From positions 1 to 24,476 of the IMG/VR virus record IMGVR_UViG_3300025102_000278: a DNA stretch of 24,476 nucleotides. The stretch is one strand, 5' to 3'. The notes under the pieces were generated by a model. It saw only the letters and a list, made by a program, of their open reading frames with translations. It had not been told where the DNA came from and searched no databases. Positions 7,022-23,956 of the stretch are shown here, piece by piece. Numbering within the stretch: the stretch's first letter is position 1; every line of letters begins with the position of its first letter. The position numbers and the translations under genes were made by a program. Source of the stretch: a virus.

Positions 7022-9211
7022 TTATTTAATATTTTTAAATGCAGACTTCTTAAATTTAGTAGATCCAAGTCTTTTTTTTCTAGCTAAATTTTTAAAAGGC
7101 CTCATAGATAATTTATACAAATTTTGTGATTTTTCCAAGTTATCTCTTGACATATCTTCTTCTTTATGCTTAATATAGCCTCTATTAGACTGTTGTATCC
7201 TAGCAAATGCAATTAATGCAGAAAATGCTACAAGTCTATCCACGTTTAATCCAGGGAAGTATTGCATCATTTCTGTTAATAACATTTTGTCTGGAATTCT
7301 TTCAACTCCTAAATTTGTTTTTAATACATTTCCATGCTCATCTGTATCTTGATTTATCTCTTCTCTAACAAACTCAATAGCATAAGATATTAGATGACTT
7401 TTAAATAGTGTACCAGTATTTTTCCAACCATATTCTTGAAAAACATTTTGATTAGATCCTAAGTCTTTTAAAAATACTATCTGTTGTTTTGGTACTAAAT
7501 ATTTTTGTTTCTTTTTAGATATCATGTATTGGATAAAAAGAGATATATTATTCTCAACTAATGTCCAAGCATTATACCATTCAATAATTAATTCTAATTG
7601 TTCATGTGTTTTGTTTATATCATCATATCTACCACACCAAGATGCTACAATTTTATCACCTTCTATAAATGCTTCAGGTTGATCTTTACTTTGTCTAGTT
7701 ACTTCAATAGGATTTTTATAAACAAATATACTACATAAAGAATCTGATGTAGTTGTTTTACCTTCTGATACAGGGTCAATAGAAGCATAGTACATACCAA
7801 ATGAAGGATTTTTAACAGGCTTCTCCCAAACTACTAATACTCCAGATTTATCTTCTAATTTTTTATTAACAGGGAAATTAAAAATAGGTAGCTTATTAGA
7901 CTTACTAGCTTTAATACTATTAGATGTTCTTTCTAATTTTACAAATTCATATGCATATTCTTTTTCTTCAATTCTTTTAAGTTGTCTTGATATTATAGCT
8001 TGTGGAAATATTGCTTCTTTTCTATATGCAAAAGCTTCTGCAATATCTATTGGTTTTTGTGATATTCTTAATTGATATTGTTCTGGGTTTAAATCTTTTT
8101 TCCATTGTGCTCTTTCTTCTTTTATAGCATTGAGAGCTTGCTCAACTAATGAATTTCCGTACTTATCTATATGAGGAGGCATAGACCATTGTTCAGGAAT
8201 AAATAAACCTGCTTTACCTATAGTTCCTTTTTCATCCATTAAGTTTGTTTCTACTGCATATATATCATTTCCTTCTGGATTTAATATCATTTGTTTTAAT
8301 GGATTACATTGATCAAGATCACCAACAGAACCAGCTGCAATAAACATACCAGTAGTTATCATACCTGATGTCATTGCAGGTCTAATATACTCAAATGTTT
8401 GATCCATTTTAGGAGCAATACCAGCCTCTTCATGAAAGAAATAAGTACAAGGTCCACCAACACCAGTTGTTGGATTTTTTTCAAAAGAAGCACCTTGAAT
8501 TTTTGACATTAAACCTTTATGTGTTTTTCTATTGTTAACTCTAACTTCAATTTTTTGTTCCCATAATAATACTTTAGCTGGATTAGTAGGTCTATACCAA
8601 GCAGTATGTTCATTGAGAAATGTTTTATATTCTTCTAAAAATTTCCAAGATCCTTTATCATTTATGTAATCTTTAAGTGATGCACCTATTTTACATATAG
8701 ATCCTTCTTCAAACCAAAATTGATTTAATACTTTAGCCATATGAAAATAAGAAGAAGCTATCTGACGTTTTTTAAGAATAGCTACATGTCTATAATGTAA
8801 TTCTGCAAGTAATTCATATAAAGCCATATGATACTGTGCATCCCTTACTTTAGCAAATCCGTACTTTTTTTCTTCTTTATCAAAGATTGGTAAGAAATTT
8901 AACCACATATAATAATCTCTTGTAAGATAAAATATATTTTTCTCACCATAATATAAAACACCTTCTTGACATTTTTCTTTTTCAGAATTCCAATACTTTA
9001 TATAATCTTTAGATCTAAAAGGTTTATTACAATAATAACCTTGAGTATTAAATATTCTAGCTTGTTCATTAAAAAGAAGGGCAGTTTCATCAAACTGATA
9101 CTGCCCTGGCTCTTTAAAAAGTGTTAAAATAAAATTTACAAAGTCTTCTTTTTCTTTAAATTCTTTGTAGTCCCATTCACCATTTTTATATGTAGGAACT
9201 TTTTTATACAT
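7022..9211 (-). CDS. terL: Terminase large subunit (DNA-packaging ATPase/nuclease)
   Basis: A 729-aa protein with the two-domain layout of tailed-phage terminases. The ATPase half shows a degenerate Walker A (KKRQIASSYF, residues 147-156), Walker B with catalytic Glu (TYFFHEEAG, 256-264) and a motif-III-like GSVGDLD (294-300). The nuclease half has the RNase H-like first acidic motif IDPVSEGKTTTSD (478-490), an acidic VENN (552-555) and a late Asp in NVDRL (656-660). It translocates DNA through the portal into the procapsid and cuts concatemers. The size and motif spelling suit crAss-like TerL. The start overlaps the GroES gene by 8 nt, implying translational coupling. No small terminase subunit is recognisable nearby, as is usual for this phage group. 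Confidence 0.92.
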   Translation of the reverse strand: MYKKVPTYKNGEWDYKEFKEKEDFVNFILTLFKEPGQYQFDETALLFNEQARIFNTQGYYCNKPFRSKDYIKYWNSEKEKCQEGVLYYGEKNIFYLTRDYYMWLNFLPIFDKEEKKYGFAKVRDAQYHMALYELLAELHYRHVAILKKRQIASSYFHMAKVLNQFWFEEGSICKIGASLKDYINDKGSWKFLEEYKTFLNEHTAWYRPTNPAKVLLWEQKIEVRVNNRKTHKGLMSKIQGASFEKNPTTGVGGPCTYFFHEEAGIAPKMDQTFEYIRPAMTSGMITTGMFIAAGSVGDLDQCNPLKQMILNPEGNDIYAVETNLMDEKGTIGKAGLFIPEQWSMPPHIDKYGNSLVEQALNAIKEERAQWKKDLNPEQYQLRISQKPIDIAEAFAYRKEAIFPQAIISRQLKRIEEKEYAYEFVKLERTSNSIKASKSNKLPIFNFPVNKKLEDKSGVLVVWEKPVKNPSFGMYYASIDPVSEGKTTTSDSLCSIFVYKNPIEVTRQSKDQPEAFIEGDKIVASWCGRYDDINKTHEQLELIIEWYNAWTLVENNISLFIQYMISKKKQKYLVPKQQIVFLKDLGSNQNVFQEYGWKNTGTLFKSHLISYAIEFVREEINQDTDEHGNVLKTNLGVERIPDKMLLTEMMQYFPGLNVDRLVAFSALIAFARIQQSNRGYIKHKEEDMSRDNLEKSQNLYKLSMRPFKNLARKKRLGSTKFKKSAFKNIK

Positions 9212-9506
9212 CTTCTAATTTACAAACTATTGCATCCTGAGTTAATAAAATATGACGTTCTCCATTGTGAATAAATTCTTTATCATCAACTGACATATTA
9301 ATAATCCATTGTACAAAATCTCCAATTTGAAGATCATCAAATACTTCTGGACCTCTTGCAACAATAGTACCTTGAGGTTTTTGTTGAACTTGAGAATCAG
9401 GAAGAATAATTCCTGAATTAGTTTGTTCTACCTTTTCAACTGGTTTTACTAATATTCTTTTACCAATAGGTATTACTTTATAGTTTTTAACATTTTCTTT
9501 TATCAT
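9204..9506 (-). CDS. Phage GroES-type co-chaperonin
   Basis: A 100-aa protein that aligns by eye with GroES along its full length. It has a beta-strand GKRILVKPVEKVE, a mobile-loop segment QTNSGIILPDSQVQ (the SGIIL corresponds to the GroEL-contacting GGIVL), GTIVARGPEVFDDLQIGDFV (matching GEVLAVG...VKVGDIV), and a C-terminal strand HILLTQDAIVCKLE matching VLIMSESDILAIVE. GroES caps the GroEL cavity. Phage versions such as T4 gp31 replace host GroES to allow folding of the capsid protein. It sits between a 172-aa gene and TerL in the packaging/capsid operon, which fits that job. The roof-loop region is shortened or altered around WIINMSVDDKEF. No GroEL gene is in this window, so it would work with the host chaperonin. 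Confidence 0.88.
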   Translation of the reverse strand: MIKENVKNYKVIPIGKRILVKPVEKVEQTNSGIILPDSQVQQKPQGTIVARGPEVFDDLQIGDFVQWIINMSVDDKEFIHNGERHILLTQDAIVCKLEDV

Positions 9507-13807: not shown

Positions 13808-16027
13808 CTAATTTGTATAAACTCCATTAATATTAATATTAAAAAATAAATCTTGATTACCACTATTACTATCTTTCTTTAACCAAATAAATAACATGTC
13901 ATCTTCTGCAAATGTATTACTTGAAGTAAAATCTTCTGTATGACTCCATGTTTGATTTACTGCAGGAGGTGTTATTGCTGAAGTATTAAACATATGAGTA
14001 AGACTAACACTAGCTGAACCATTTGACATTGCTCCTTTCATTAAATAGAATTTAAAAGGATCTGTTGCTCCTGTATCTGCAGCAGTTCCTTGTATTTTTA
14101 TATTTGTTATTTTTCCAGCTCTTGGTGCTATCATAAAATTACTAAATGAATCAGTATATGATATACTAGTAGGACTACTATCTCCATTACTCCAATTCTC
14201 ATACCAATTTCTATAAAATGTATAGTAAAAAGTTGTACTTGTGTTGTTTTGTCTATAACCAGGAACTATTTGATGCCAATACTGTCCACCAGTTTCATCA
14301 TCAGTTAAAGCTAAAATTCCATTAGCATTTGGTAGCTCAACTGTTTTATCTGATGATAATGCAGCATTATCATATGCTTTTAGAGTAATATGGTTAGTAG
14401 CATATGCTGTATCTTCATAAAAATCTACTGAACCAGTAGCATCTCTTCCTCCAGAACTACCACCATATAAAGATAATTTACCTGCACTAGAAGCAGTATG
14501 AAACTTAGCAAAATGATTAGTATTATCTTTAATATCTACATTACCACCATCAGCATTTAATTCTATTTCTCCTGCTGAATCTAATAGTATATCATTAGAT
14601 GCATCAGTTGAAGCAATAGCTACTTTACCATCTGCTACAATAGTAAGATCTGCATTATGTGAAGCATTATCAACGGTTGTTAAAACAGTTTCACCATTTC
14701 CTTTAACTTCTGTAGTAAAGTAATTTCTTATATCATTTACATCATATAATTTTGTAAATGACGAGCTAGCAGCACCAGCTTGAGCATAAATTTGAAACAA
14801 TGCTTCTGGTCTTGATGTACCTGATCCTCCCGTTATATTTGCAGCAGGTGCTCCCATAAAAGTATACATTCCACCAGGAATACTTCCTGTACCTATACCA
14901 GAGTCAAATATTTGTTGACCTGCTGCTATATCAGTTCCTGCTCCTGAATTAGAACACGCAATAGTAAAACGATCACCAGCTTGTCCTGCAAGACTTCCAG
15001 GAGTAGTTATACCTACACTAGTATTAGTAGGTAATCCTATACTTAAGACATTACTATTATATGTTAATGTAGATTCAATATCAATTGTATTAGCACCCCC
15101 ATATGTTGCTACACCATTAGCTGTTGTACCATTTATTGTAGTACCTGTAGTAGCATCTGCCCATGTAGCATTACCACTTCCATCCTTAGTTAATCTTTGA
15201 CCAGCACTAGCACCACTAACTGCAGTTAAGGCATCAATAGCACCTTGTTGTGTAGTTTGTCCTGTTCCTCCATCTCCTATAGCTAAAGTACCTTGAATAT
15301 TGCTAGCTCCAAGATTCATTGATAATTCTGTAGAATCTATAATTATTCCGCTATTTGCTTTAACATCAGTGCTAAATTCAGTACCAGAAAGATCTAAACC
15401 ATCTCCTGCTGTATATGTAGTATTTATTTGTGTATTCCAGGTTGCATTTCCACTACCGTCTTTTGTTAAAGCTTGACCAGAACTTGCACTACTTACTTGT
15501 GTTAAAGCATCTATTGCTGCTTGTGCAGTGCTTTGACCAGTACCACCATTAGCAATAGCTAGATCAGTTCCTGACCAATCATCATTATTAATTGCAAGAG
15601 TTCCACCAAGAGTTAGATTACCTGATGAAGTTACAGTACCTGTTAATGTTAATCCATTTTCTGTTCCTGTACCACCTACAGAAGTTACAGTACCTGCATA
15701 CTGATCAGTTGAATTAATAGTAACTGTTGTGCCTGATACTGCTGTTGTAACGTTTGTACCACCTGTAAATGTAAGTGTACCTGAAGTTGTAATTGCTGTT
15801 CCTGATCCTGAGTCTGCTGCAGGAGTAATAGATGTAACAGTACCACTACTAGAACTAACCGTAGTCCAAGTAAGTAAACCATTACCATCAGTAGTTAGTA
15901 CTTGTCCTGTAGTACCATCATCATTAGGTAAAGTTAATTCATAAGAATATTGATTATCTGGAGGTGAAAGAAGAACTCCTCCAATAAGTAAATCACTAAA
16001 TACAGGGTGTTTTCCTATCCATTTCAT
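13808..16027 (-). CDS. Large fibre / receptor-binding protein
   Basis: A 739-aa Gly/Thr/Ser-rich protein, the largest likely adhesin in the window. The N-terminal ~60 residues (MKWIGKHPVFSDLLIGGVLL) probably anchor it. Residues about 60-150 are Thr-Gly beta repeats. Two copies of a 43-residue module with the signature NGGTGQSTAQAAIDAL...GQALTKDGSGNATW occur at about 158-200 and 249-291; this module is common in phage tail and head fibres. The C-terminal ~150 residues (from about PGYRQNNTSTTFYY) are different, aromatic-rich and probably the globular receptor-binding head. It binds the host cell surface. It overlaps the holin-like gene by 4 nt (ATGA). Attachment to tail or to head cannot be decided from sequence. 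Confidence 0.8.
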   Translation of the reverse strand: MKWIGKHPVFSDLLIGGVLLSPPDNQYSYELTLPNDDGTTGQVLTTDGNGLLTWTTVSSSSGTVTSITPAADSGSGTAITTSGTLTFTGGTNVTTAVSGTTVTINSTDQYAGTVTSVGGTGTENGLTLTGTVTSSGNLTLGGTLAINNDDWSGTDLAIANGGTGQSTAQAAIDALTQVSSASSGQALTKDGSGNATWNTQINTTYTAGDGLDLSGTEFSTDVKANSGIIIDSTELSMNLGASNIQGTLAIGDGGTGQTTQQGAIDALTAVSGASAGQRLTKDGSGNATWADATTGTTINGTTANGVATYGGANTIDIESTLTYNSNVLSIGLPTNTSVGITTPGSLAGQAGDRFTIACSNSGAGTDIAAGQQIFDSGIGTGSIPGGMYTFMGAPAANITGGSGTSRPEALFQIYAQAGAASSSFTKLYDVNDIRNYFTTEVKGNGETVLTTVDNASHNADLTIVADGKVAIASTDASNDILLDSAGEIELNADGGNVDIKDNTNHFAKFHTASSAGKLSLYGGSSGGRDATGSVDFYEDTAYATNHITLKAYDNAALSSDKTVELPNANGILALTDDETGGQYWHQIVPGYRQNNTSTTFYYTFYRNWYENWSNGDSSPTSISYTDSFSNFMIAPRAGKITNIKIQGTAADTGATDPFKFYLMKGAMSNGSASVSLTHMFNTSAITPPAVNQTWSHTEDFTSSNTFAEDDMLFIWLKKDSNSGNQDLFFNININGVYTN

Positions 16028-18555: not shown

Positions 18556-18942
18556 TTATTTAGTTAGTTTTATATAAATACGACCATCATGAATATATAC
18601 GACATTATCAGGAATAGATTCATACGAATCATAGTTCCTACCCAACATATCATAATATATACCCTCAAGAGTAGTTATTTTATTTTCTTCTAAACCTATT
18701 TGTTGCTGACATGGTGTTAATGAAAACCCTGGTTCATCTACAGAACCAGCGCAACATTGCCAATAACTAGGATAAATACTAACAGAAGCATCATTACATA
18801 AAGCATTAGGTACAGGAGTGTAACAATCATAAAGGAGTTCACCTCTCCATTCAATATATGTCCACACATATGATGTGGCACAATCTTGGGCCTGCACAAA
18901 CCCTGCTATAAAAAAAGCAAATGCATATAATAGATTCTTCAT
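18556..18942 (-). CDS. Secreted Cys-rich protein with T9SS-like C-terminal domain
   Basis: A 128-aa protein. Residues 1-19 (MKNLLYAFAFFIAGFVQAQ) form a Sec signal peptide: a basic start, a hydrophobic core and a small-residue A-x-A-like cleavage area. The middle has seven Cys (DC, YDC, LC, QCC, PC), likely disulfide-bonded after export. The C-terminal ~35 residues (GIYYDMLGRNYDSYESIPDN, then VVYIHDGRIYIKLTK) strongly resemble the type A T9SS sorting domain of Bacteroidota (YDxxGR ... LPxGIYixxxxx...xKixxK). The phage therefore seems to encode a protein for export to the host periplasm and possibly the cell surface. It is the promoter-proximal late gene and is monocistronic. A superinfection-exclusion or surface-modifying role is plausible but unproven. 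Confidence 0.8.
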   Translation of the reverse strand: MKNLLYAFAFFIAGFVQAQDCATSYVWTYIEWRGELLYDCYTPVPNALCNDASVSIYPSYWQCCAGSVDEPGFSLTPCQQQIGLEENKITTLEGIYYDMLGRNYDSYESIPDNVVYIHDGRIYIKLTK

Positions 18943-18965: not shown

Positions 18966-19044
18966 TTTCCCAAAAAAGTTTTATTGCGTGTTTTGCATTC
19001 TTAGTGGGTCCTACTGTTCTGCTCCCCCGCTTTAAATTGGCAGG

Positions 19045-19073
19045 TTGCTACCCCCTGTTTAATTGGGTGGCAA
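19045..19073 (+). promoter_or_regulatory. Stable leader hairpin before the 104-aa gene
   Basis: TTGCTACCC (19045-19053) pairs with GGGTGGCAA (19065-19073): 9 bp including one T.G pair around an 11-nt loop, ending 15 nt before the ATG at 19089. The wobble is G.U on the plus strand, so the structure belongs to the rightward transcript. It has no U tract, so it is more likely a translational or stability element than a terminator. The rest of the 146-nt divergent gap is A/T-rich near 18942 and G/C-rich near 19010-19060. No clear promoter for the rightward unit is visible. Confidence 0.55.
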
Positions 19074-19088
19074 AAACAAATACAAGGT

Positions 19089-19403
19089 ATGGATGTTTAT
19101 TTCCACAAGATTCCCGAAGATAGTAACACTATCATCGTGAAGTCTGCACCCATTGCTAGGTCTCAAATGACCTTCAATGGTAAGCCTGGATTTACCAGAA
19201 CACAAGGTTCTGCTAAGTTTGGCTTACTTGTCATATGTGACGAGGATGGCAACACTGTTGACCCTCGTCAGTATGGGTTTGAATTCAATCAACCTATTCC
19301 AGGAGTCAGACTATCTGACTCTCCTGTCTTGGATCAAGAATCCAAGGAGGAGACTGGGTTGTATTGGGCAGAGCCCTATGACAATAGTGCAGAGGAAGAT
19401 TAG
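19089..19403 (+). CDS. 104-aa protein of unusual composition, first rightward gene
   Basis: A 104-aa acidic protein. It starts MDVYFHKIPEDSNTIIVKSA, continues through a Gly/Phe-rich middle (TFNGKPGFTRTQGSAKFGLL, VICDEDGNTVDPRQYGFEFN) and ends in an acidic tail (EPYDNSAEED). No signal or membrane part is seen. Codon choice is clearly different from the rest of the window, with many C- and G-ending codons (AAC, ATC, CCC, GAC, CTC), against a nearly all-A/T pattern in the early genes to the right. That suggests recent acquisition or strong selection for expression. The stop codon lies inside an 11-bp hairpin (19394-19419). It is likely an immediate-early protein. I do not recognise a family. Frames overlapping it in other phases are shadows. 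Confidence 0.65.
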   Translation: MDVYFHKIPEDSNTIIVKSAPIARSQMTFNGKPGFTRTQGSAKFGLLVICDEDGNTVDPRQYGFEFNQPIPGVRLSDSPVLDQESKEETGLYWAEPYDNSAEED

Positions 19404-20660
19404 CAGAGCTAAGTCTTCCCTCGCACCCTGTTGCTTGGTGTGTTCCTCAAGAGTAACAAAGCCCAACCATGGAGGTGATAGCCCATGGGTAAGCTCTAAG
19501 TATCTTCCGTCAAGGGTATACTTACTGGTTAAAGTCCAGACAAATTCATTAGACTATCCACAATATACTCACTTAAACAGAGTTTTATTCTCAACTTAGA
19601 CACAATCCCTGTGATAATGGTTGAATTGTCCACTAACTGGTAATAAAATTCTGTTTGGTGTTGTGTGTTGCACTGAATGTAGGTGGTCATAATTCCCACA
19701 TTATACCACCTTGCAAGAAATAATATAATGGTTAACTCCATAATATATAATATAGCTATAACTAGAGCATAAACATTCAATTGGGTGTGAACATGGAGGT
19801 TACTCGTATATTAACACATGGTACTAGTGTTAACATGTTCTAACTCTAGTTGTAGTCTATATAATACTTATGTTCTCTCTCTATAGGATAAGAGACATAG
19901 TAACCGCAACATTTAAACCAACTAACTATTGATACAGGATAGCAAATGTCTGTATTGATAATACCTGTAAAATTAGTTACAACTATAATATGCCTTCGGG
20001 AGTGTGGAGTTAGTTGGTGTGATAAGTCTCAAAGTACCAGGGACTATAAACTGTTAGGTCTGGGTTTGGAAGGTCTAGTGAACCTTGGTGAAACACCTTA
20101 AACTTCCTAATTATAATAGTACAAGGGATACAACGGCTAGCTACCAACGTATCCTGAGTGTCGCACAATAAACCTTCTCAAAGGGGTTAGTGCATCTGAT
20201 TGGCCTGTGATGGGTGGTCGTACAGTTAAATAATTGTATGATCGTATGTAGTGTATCAATTGGAGTATGATGAATAAAGTAATTTAATTATTAACTTACT
20301 TTGAAATCATTAATGTTATAGGGCCATCTTCAAGTCCTGACAACTTATGAAGTTCTTAACAGAACTATACAATGTTATAACCTTGGTATCTAATCAATAT
20401 TGAGAACATAATGAGTATAAAGGTTAATCGCCTGCATAGGGTTAATGAATACAAAGGGGGAACCCAAGAGTCATCATTGTGAGAGTAGTTTGCTCATCAC
20501 TCATTGTACTATTTATTATAACAGAGTAAACTGTTTAAATTAAACTGTGCCATAATTAGATAAGCTAAAACGGTTTTATGGGCAGATATAAAGTGGATAA
20601 ATTCACCTAGGAACCACACACGGTAATAGTGAACTAGGAAAACTAACAGAGTAAACTGTA
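19394..20660 (+). ncRNA. Large structured RNA candidate (~1.25 kb)
   Basis: No credible gene lies between 19404 and 20698. Instead there is a dense series of helices, including: 19394-19399 + 19400-19404 with 19408-19412 + 19414-19419 (11 bp); 19575-19588 with 19643-19656 (14 bp, one G.U); hairpin 19681-19711 (12 bp, one bulge); a nested element 19750-19862 made of ATATAG/CTATAT, an 11-bp helix 19757-19767/19844-19854, GAACATG/CATGTTC and TTAACAC/GTGTTAA; 19869-19899 (9 bp); 19917-19927/20008-20018 (11 bp) enclosing smaller stems; GGGATAC/GTATCCT at 20125-20155; 20216-20224/20235-20243 (9 bp); 20267-20310 (12 bp); and 20351-20366. Wobbles are G.U on this strand and would be A.C on the other. 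Base composition is also visibly richer in G/C than the flanks. The boundaries are approximate. Confidence 0.65.
20519..20659 (+). repeat. Pair of 16-nt direct repeats, each a small hairpin
   Basis: TAACAGAGTAAACTGT occurs at 20519-20534 and again, identically, at 20644-20659. Each copy is itself a hairpin (ACAG/CTGT, loop AGTAAA). A partial copy, AAACTGT, is found at about 20542-20548. The pair flanks ~110 nt at the 3' end of the structured region and upstream of the membrane-protein gene. They may be protein-binding sites, RNA processing signals or end sequences of the RNA. Confidence 0.6.
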
Positions 20661-20698
20661 GTAAATCATTTAATTAATGTTCACTTAAATATATAATT

Positions 20699-20926
20699 AT
20701 GAAAAACTTTTTGCAAAGACTTATTTTACCAGTGAAGTTGGCTATACTATTTATAATGCCGCCACTATTCACTGTTGTCACATGTGTTGTTACATCAGCT
20801 ACACTTTCAGTATTATGTGCTGAAGGTACAGTATCTGAATACACATTGTGGAATGTTTATGAGATATTGGTTTATATCTTATATACTATGGGGTTTGTTA
20901 AACTCTTATTTAAACCTTTTAATTAA
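20699..20926 (+). CDS. 75-aa membrane protein
   Basis: The protein begins MKNFLQRLILPVKLAILFIM. It has two probable membrane helices, about residues 10-40 (possibly one long or two short spans) and 52-68 (ILVYILYTMGFVKLLF), and ends KLLFKPFN. The start is preceded by A/T-rich TTAAATATATAATTATG. It stands alone between the structured region and a hairpin at 20950-20975. The stop is TAA at 20924-20926. Small membrane proteins at this location may act early in infection, for example in superinfection exclusion, but nothing in the sequence shows the function. Confidence 0.6.
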   Translation: MKNFLQRLILPVKLAILFIMPPLFTVVTCVVTSATLSVLCAEGTVSEYTLWNVYEILVYILYTMGFVKLLFKPFN

Positions 20927-23186: not shown

Positions 23187-23696
23187 ATGCTTAGTGAAAA
23201 ACAAATACAAAAACTCAAACCTACTTTAGATAAATTTGAAGATGAAAGAAAAATAGCTAGATATACATATCTTGGAATGCTTTCTGAATATCAATTATAT
23301 TTAAAAGAATCAAGACAAAAAATAGTATATTCTAAACTTAACCCAAAGCAACATTTTTTATTTAAAAGAATATTACATGGATTAAGAATGTATAAATCTA
23401 GTGAAATATCTGAAATGCATTGGGACAAGAAAAGAAGAATAACTAAAGTTTGGAAACGTGGTCAAAACACAATAAATGAACTTAAACAATATGTTGCATT
23501 TCAACAAGTTAAGCCAATATTTCGTATATTTGCTAAATCAGAACTTGGTAGAGAAATATATGAGATGCCTTTTGAATATATTCCTGATTATAAAAATAAA
23601 ATGACTCTTCAGGAATTAGGTATAAACTATGAAGATGTAATTTTAAAGTTTATGGGTAAAGGTTTATTACCAACAAATTATTTAAGTGTAAGATGA
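23187..23696 (+). CDS. Unknown 169-aa early protein
   Basis: A basic, helical 169-aa protein (MLSEKQIQKLKPTLDKFEDE; FKRILHGLRMYKSSEISEMH; NTINELKQYVAFQQVKPIFR) ending MGKGLLPTNYLSVR. It is Lys/Arg-rich, with no clear nuclease or polymerase motif. Its stop overlaps the ATG of the HNH-type gene (ATGA), which suggests coupled expression with that gene. It could be a replication or recombination accessory factor; this is inferred only from position. The start follows the tandem terminator and an A-rich leader (AATAATTAAAACAATG). Confidence 0.7.
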   Translation: MLSEKQIQKLKPTLDKFEDERKIARYTYLGMLSEYQLYLKESRQKIVYSKLNPKQHFLFKRILHGLRMYKSSEISEMHWDKKRRITKVWKRGQNTINELKQYVAFQQVKPIFRIFAKSELGREIYEMPFEYIPDYKNKMTLQELGINYEDVILKFMGKGLLPTNYLSVR

Positions 23697-23956
23697 GACA
23701 AAAATCAAAGAAGATGCAGAAACTTGATGCAAAGTATAGTAAACTAAGGCTGACATTCCTTAGTAAATATCCTATGTGTCAAGCTGCACTTCCTAGATGC
23801 ACTCACAGATCAACAGATGTACATCATAAAAAAGGTAGAGGAATTTATCACAATGATGTAAGTACCTGGTTATCAGTATGTAGAACATGTCACAATTGGA
23901 TAGAACTTAATCCAATAGAGGCAGAAGAATTAGGATTTTCAATTAAAAGAATATGA
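23693..23956 (+). CDS. HNH-type zinc protein (putative endonuclease)
   Basis: An 87-aa basic protein. Landmarks are FLSKYPMCQAALPRCTHRST (C-x6-C), DVHHKKGR (the catalytic-type His pair), WLSVCRTCHNWIELNP (C-x2-C-H plus Asn). The four Cys would bind one zinc, and DVHH with the later H-N resembles the beta-beta-alpha-metal HNH fold. In phages such small HNH proteins act as recombination or packaging endonucleases; the placement beside early replication genes suggests the former. There is no attached DNA-binding domain, so it is not a typical homing endonuclease. It overlaps the next gene by 4 nt. Confidence 0.75.
   Translation: MRQKSKKMQKLDAKYSKLRLTFLSKYPMCQAALPRCTHRSTDVHHKKGRGIYHNDVSTWLSVCRTCHNWIELNPIEAEELGFSIKRI

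Follow-up and report, generated by a model that had tools for sequence, protein, structure and literature searches.

The locus studied here raises the question of what a phage keeps in a tract of about 1.25 kb that is rich in long helices and lies where its gene blocks diverge. It belongs to virus record IMGVR_UViG_3300025102_000278, and "the window" below means the whole stretch of 24,476 nucleotides that was analysed. In the window, the minus-strand structural genes reach position 18,942 and a plus-strand block begins at 19,089, encoding a replication-initiation-like winged-helix protein, an HNH protein and others. The initial annotation described the tract as one giant non-coding RNA, either new or a divergent member of a class such as GOLLD or ROOL, between early and late modules, a label inferred from gene content only. 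Comparison with relatives indicated that the tract is a modular island of a conserved core and swappable modules. The locus is thus modular, with a single-copy core and plus-strand polarity, and its conserved units are a core of ~250 nt and a module, D, of ~400 nt; the remainder consists of variable cassettes, which does not agree with a single RNA of ~1.25 kb.

Results

The phage is a crAss-like phage according to its terminase (phrog_6681) and portal (phrog_6547), with identities of only 20–35%, and its crAss-like relatives include cr1_1 and phi17:2; the closest GenBank relative of the portal is 35% identical. The 104-aa gene at the start of the plus-strand block had no Pfam or PHROG match, and in relatives the core sits 3' of this gene or of an unrelated one. 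The equivalent junction starts a plus-strand block of ~24 kb in two long relatives, of 114 and 122 kb. In the divergent intergenic region, the GT-rich element is similar to the core at its 5' end (TTGYGTGTTTTGCATTCT.AGTGGGTCC) and has a counterpart at the equivalent place in G054 (41155) and L004 (by eye), and it is a candidate for a promoter part common to the intergenic region and the core. Elsewhere in the window, a 739-aa tail-fibre-like gene (13808-16027) contains internal repeats that are 72% identical (15161-15285 and 15437-15561) and diverges strongly among relatives, and a 100-aa protein encoded at 9204-9506, GroES co-chaperonin-like by eye, adjoins the terminase.

Table 1. Positions of the elements of the tract and its upstream flank in the window.
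Feature	Position	Strand	Remarks
GT-rich element TTGCGTGTTTTGCATT...GTGGGTCC	18984..19030	+	Divergent intergenic region, ahead of first plus-strand gene
104-aa gene, FHK family	19089..19403	+	Opens plus-strand block
14-bp hairpin 5' of core	19575..19656	+	Reduced form in L004
Core left half: GU-rich arm and CCAC boxes (19696, 19706)	19663..19727	+	10-nt period
Hairpin A, ATGG/CCAT	19728..19741	+	Elsewhere ACGG/CCGT, ACTGT/ACAGT
Conserved ATAATATAGCTAT	19747..19759	+	In several phages, ORF ATG directly 3' of TATAGCT
Hairpin B with hypervariable tip (proposed first cargo slot)	19750..19862	+	Basal helix 19756-19767/19844-19855
Motif/hairpin C (TTCTCTCTCTATAGGATAAGAG at 19873) and tail ACCGCAAC	19870..19910	+	Nucleotide-invariant, one exact copy per genome
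Module M1	19910..20030	+	In the window, closed by 11-bp helix 19917-19927/20008-20018
Module D, ~400-nt structured RNA	20112..20519	+	Closing helix 20115-20124/20504-20513
Junction repeat AACAGAGTAAACTGT, copy 1	20520..20534	+	
Module E	20577..20644	+	93–96% identical in L004 and L153, position differs in each
Junction repeat AACAGAGTAAACTGT, copy 2	20645..20659	+	5' of 75-aa gene at 20699

The helices listed from the single sequence are present, with small corrections only. The 14-bp helix (19575-19588/19643-19656) contains one G·U pair, the 11-bp helix of M1 is perfect, and the outer ATATAG/CTATAT of the element regarded as the best one pairs at 19750-19755/19857-19862, while the 12-bp hairpin at 19681-19711 can pair only if one nucleotide is bulged (AGGTGGT-c-ATAAT/ATTATACCACCT). 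Helices of at least 11 bp numbered 20 in the tract vs 10.7±2.9 (maximum 17) in 40 dinucleotide shuffles, and the minimum free energy of 19404-20698 gave z scores of −4.5 on the plus strand and −3.2 on the minus strand (60 shuffles per strand). The description as gene-free holds as far as tested: the ORFs of at least 60 aa that reach into the tract, one of 140 aa from 19177, which is an alternative frame of the 104-aa gene, and one of 83 aa on the minus strand, had no equivalent in the ORF list of the syntenic L004 tract. The higher G/C content claimed for the tract was found mainly at 19001-19750 (0.41–0.46, vs about 0.26–0.33 in most flanking genes), and afterwards the rise was modest (0.30–0.37).

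A portal scan yielded 80 relatives, and blastn with the tract, covering 45 of these, matched 14. In L004, a syntenic contig of 61 kb that carries the tract, a block of ~440 nt is 90% identical, and a block of 93 nt is 95% identical and relocated relative to the window. The alignment of the matching relatives revealed a common core ending in TTCTCTCTCTATAGGATAAGAG...ACCGCAA, a motif found in 47 stretches of viral contigs, almost all of which contain the full core. A looser left-half pattern was found in at least 119 stretches, and among the matches listed, 54 of the 74 new loci read had the full left half, many with a variant motif C. The full core is known from about 45 viral contigs and the left half from many more. 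Exact motif C occurred once in 15 and not at all in 5 of 20 long records, several of which had been picked for carrying it. Among GenBank phages, blastn with the tract and another core variant gave short chance-like hits or none, and the covariance model R1 did not match Lbo-JY46 or phi17:2. Motif C had only two matches in the genomes of sequenced bacteria and archaea, and these were discounted, both lying within unrelated coding genes. A search of open-licence papers turned up none on an RNA of this kind in these phages.

The core, at about 19,660-19,910, is single copy, on the plus strand and at the start of the plus-strand block in relatives. It consists of the CCAC boxes, TATAGCTA, hairpin B with its hypervariable tip, and an invariant CTCTATAGGAT block, and folding was stronger on the plus strand in 28 of 34 cores. 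RNAalifold obtained no structure from the whole core alignment because the tips cannot be aligned. Hairpin A was supported by the comparison of own with swapped halves (0 of 20000 permutations). The arms of hairpin B averaged −13.1 kcal/mol when matched and −8.3 when swapped between phages, with none of 10,000 permutations as good; double changes were found in 9 of 12 pairs, and the covariation score exceeded all 500 shuffles and all slid registers, in an alignment that was CM-fitted and so biased towards the structure. The long B element of the window has a compensated counterpart in L218. Hairpin B is an RNA structure with strong covariation. The left half can fold as a further hairpin, P, which is weakly supported; its initial 0/5000 became 70/20000 with more lineages, the reverse-complement control was similar, and it was not retained as an RNA.

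Motif C and its tail lie 50–90 nt 5' of the next ORF in several phages. Hairpin C showed scarcely any variation, and the invariance of the motif is partly imposed, as the first core set was chosen by exact motif C; the variants TCTTCCTCTATAGG and TCTCTATAGAG exist among further loci. A T7-like repeated promoter was ruled out by the one exact copy per genome. The FSLYRI... frame of the motif is open in many phages (by eye), and a coding segment was likewise ruled out, as the motif is nucleotide-invariant, with third positions unchanged and stops in some members. In L217, L231, L241 and L262, an ORF replaces hairpin B. Since an ORF ATG follows TATAGCT in this slot, the left half is a good candidate for a promoter or a 5' leader. 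Small ORFs (about 50–70 aa) begin exactly at TATAGCT-ATG in the slot of these four contigs and of L132 and L177.

Module D is carried by five phage contigs, and we regard it as a self-contained domain because a 10-bp helix closes it. Its structure has 114 pairs, with 98.4% of 569 cells paired, a percentage favoured by prediction from the same alignment; when the partners were slid by 1–3 columns, 37–47% were paired. Compensatory pairs numbered 17 vs 7.1±1.6 in shuffles (0 of 500 reached 17), and the consensus energy was −95.4 kcal/mol vs −52.9±4.3 (minimum −65.5) in 100 column-shuffled alignments. The double changes and this shuffled-alignment control do not depend on the same-alignment prediction alone. 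Helices 1, 10 and 11 of the fold show no variation among the carriers so far. The reverse complement reached −67.2 kcal/mol, so that the plus strand is clearly favoured. That all wobbles are G·U on the plus strand had been put forward for the tract from one sequence, where the argument is circular because only G·U counts as paired; it stands in the alignment of module D, with 87 G·U and 5 A·C cells. The longest stop-free run in any frame is 48–83 codons and varies between members, and the single-sequence z score in the window is modest (−2.2). Module D matched none of the known families tested in Rfam, and these data identify it as a new structured RNA. The proposal of a new plus-strand RNA at the divergent junction is therefore supported by strong covariation across relatives, in module D and in hairpin B, the element singled out at the outset.

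A covariance model of the 5' half of module D found no further carriers among 50 tract-bearing records, and most relatives have ORFs instead. Module D is 89% identical between L319 and the window, and the winged-helix gene 77%. In L139, the distance from motif C to its start is 536 nt and includes an ORF; in other carriers, the module lies closer. The carrier L231 (record G061, 245,646 bp) has an unchanged gene order in a contig double the genome length typical of the group, which reflects either assembly joining or a much larger phage. Within module D, GGCTAGCTACCAACG (20130-20146) equals the catalytic core of the 10-23 DNAzyme plus one inserted base, which we take to be almost certainly a coincidence.

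The other modules change place. M1 lies 3' of the core in the window and 3' of the repeat TAACAGAGTAAACTGT in L122/L150, and the first ~90 nt of M1 are placed elsewhere in L135, L122/L150, L153 and L170. Module E comes before module D in L004, after it in the window, and adjoins the core in L153. The repeat is found at the junctions where RNA modules and small ORFs swap, and the neighbours on its left combine freely with those on its right. Module E, which has few variable homologs, could fold into a compact pseudoknot (GTGG/CCAC with TTCAC/GTGAA).

Discussion

Our favoured reading, to which we give an even chance, is that the tract is an accessory "cargo island" heading the plus-strand (replication) block and carries structured RNAs or small proteins. 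Its first cargo slot would lie within a control element that is single copy and common to the family, with the CCAC boxes, hairpin A and TATAGCTA on the left and CTCTATAGGAT...ACCCGCAA on the right. Further slots, several divided by the repeat, would follow downstream, each holding a small ORF or a structured RNA, and those of the window phage would hold RNA, namely hairpin B, M1, module D and module E. With the left half as a putative promoter or 5' leader, the RNA cargos would be co-transcribed with the plus-strand block at an early stage of infection and may act in trans like the ORFs with which they alternate, as host-takeover or anti-defence effectors and not as leader RNA alone.

The cargo island is suggested by the covariation, energy and strand bias of module D, the covariation of hairpin B and the plus-strand folding of the core; by modules that change position, repeat junctions that recombine and the ORF that separates module D from the core in L139; by the ORF that replaces hairpin B and the high identity of module D in L319 despite the lower identity of the winged-helix gene; and by a core that is always single copy at the start of the plus-strand block. 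That RNA and ORFs alternate in the slots, and that module D is rare, speaks for cargo and against an essential cis part. Against it, module D is found in five contigs only, and a spacer tolerating anything would predict the interchange with ORFs too. The flanking ORF cargos gave no function, so the term anti-defence draws on position and turnover.

The main rival remains a cis-acting one, above all for the core: the tract may serve the replication block as a structured 5' leader or an intercistronic region, with the modules as interchangeable leader parts acting by put/nut-type processive antitermination, RNA stability or processing, or translational control. We consider this possible, at a low level of confidence. 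Nut and put elements promote terminator read-through in cis, and the tract resembles the layout of lambda, in which PR-cro-nutR is followed by O and P. Like lambda nutR and HK022 put, it places structured RNA between the opening gene of a block and replication genes; unlike them, it is much larger, has no recognisable boxA or boxB, and carries modular cargo. The single-copy core, always on the plus strand, 3' of the first gene and 5' of a long plus-strand block, agrees with a leader, as do the plus-strand RNA structure and the short distance from motif C and its tail to the next ORF. However, module D is self-contained, rare and position-independent in the tract, and most relatives have ORFs, which would be unexpected of an essential cis part. 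The argument from rarity bears on module D alone, and a cis role of the core is likely. A replication origin or other DNA-level site, possibly transcribed, would account for the single copy, the CCAC boxes as iterons with 10-bp spacing, the AT-rich TATAATATAG, the hairpins, the neighbouring winged-helix protein that resembles replication initiators, and the weak RNA support of the left half. We judge it improbable, given the plus-strand RNA covariation of hairpin B and module D. The GC-skew minimum was discarded as an origin signal because in two long relatives the skew tracks gene strand throughout.

It has been reported that the genes for GOLLD and ROOL often lie close to tRNA islands, and that GOLLD has a conserved and a less conserved part (PMC12286853). 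The tract shares with them large, highly structured, phage-encoded plus-strand RNA and, with GOLLD, conserved next to less conserved parts. A divergent GOLLD, ROOL, OLE, HEARO or intron is nevertheless very unlikely. In Rfam 15, the tract had no match at gathering score and only two chance-level hits at E≤10, none of them to a giant-RNA model, and the covariance models of OLE, HEARO and group I and II introns did not match; no tRNA was found in the window. Moreover, module D has roughly half the length of GOLLD and sits in an array of swappable modules. RNA-only nanocage assembly is a feature of GOLLD. HEARO/omega RNA and other nuclease guide RNAs are likewise structured RNAs of a few hundred nucleotides, and an HNH gene lies 3 kb downstream (23693-23956); the tract differs in having no such Rfam match, and we do not link this gene to module D because relatives without module D also have it. 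The idea that the helices arose by chance in non-coding filler, with which the modest single-sequence score of module D would agree, is effectively refuted by covariation and conservation in module D and hairpin B and by the excess of helices over shuffles.

Phage accessory-gene hotspots carry small anti-defence genes. The cargo island resembles them in its conserved flanks and its fast-exchanged small cargo near the start of a gene block, and differs in that much of the cargo is structured RNA and the anti-defence role is a proposal. Tentatively, and with some doubt, we suggest that crAss-like phages keep a dedicated locus for interchangeable RNA and small-protein cargo between fixed flanks and junction repeats, in which module D would be a trans-acting RNA effector of a new class, passed between phages like an anti-defence gene.

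Conclusions

The few known large phage RNAs gain an RNA of ~400 nt with strong covariation, and a smaller RNA or control element, spread over many phage contigs, is likewise added. Because RNA and ORFs are exchanged at fixed junctions, reading between the flanks could bring further such RNAs to light, and the locus allows a direct test of structured RNAs as exchangeable phage effectors.
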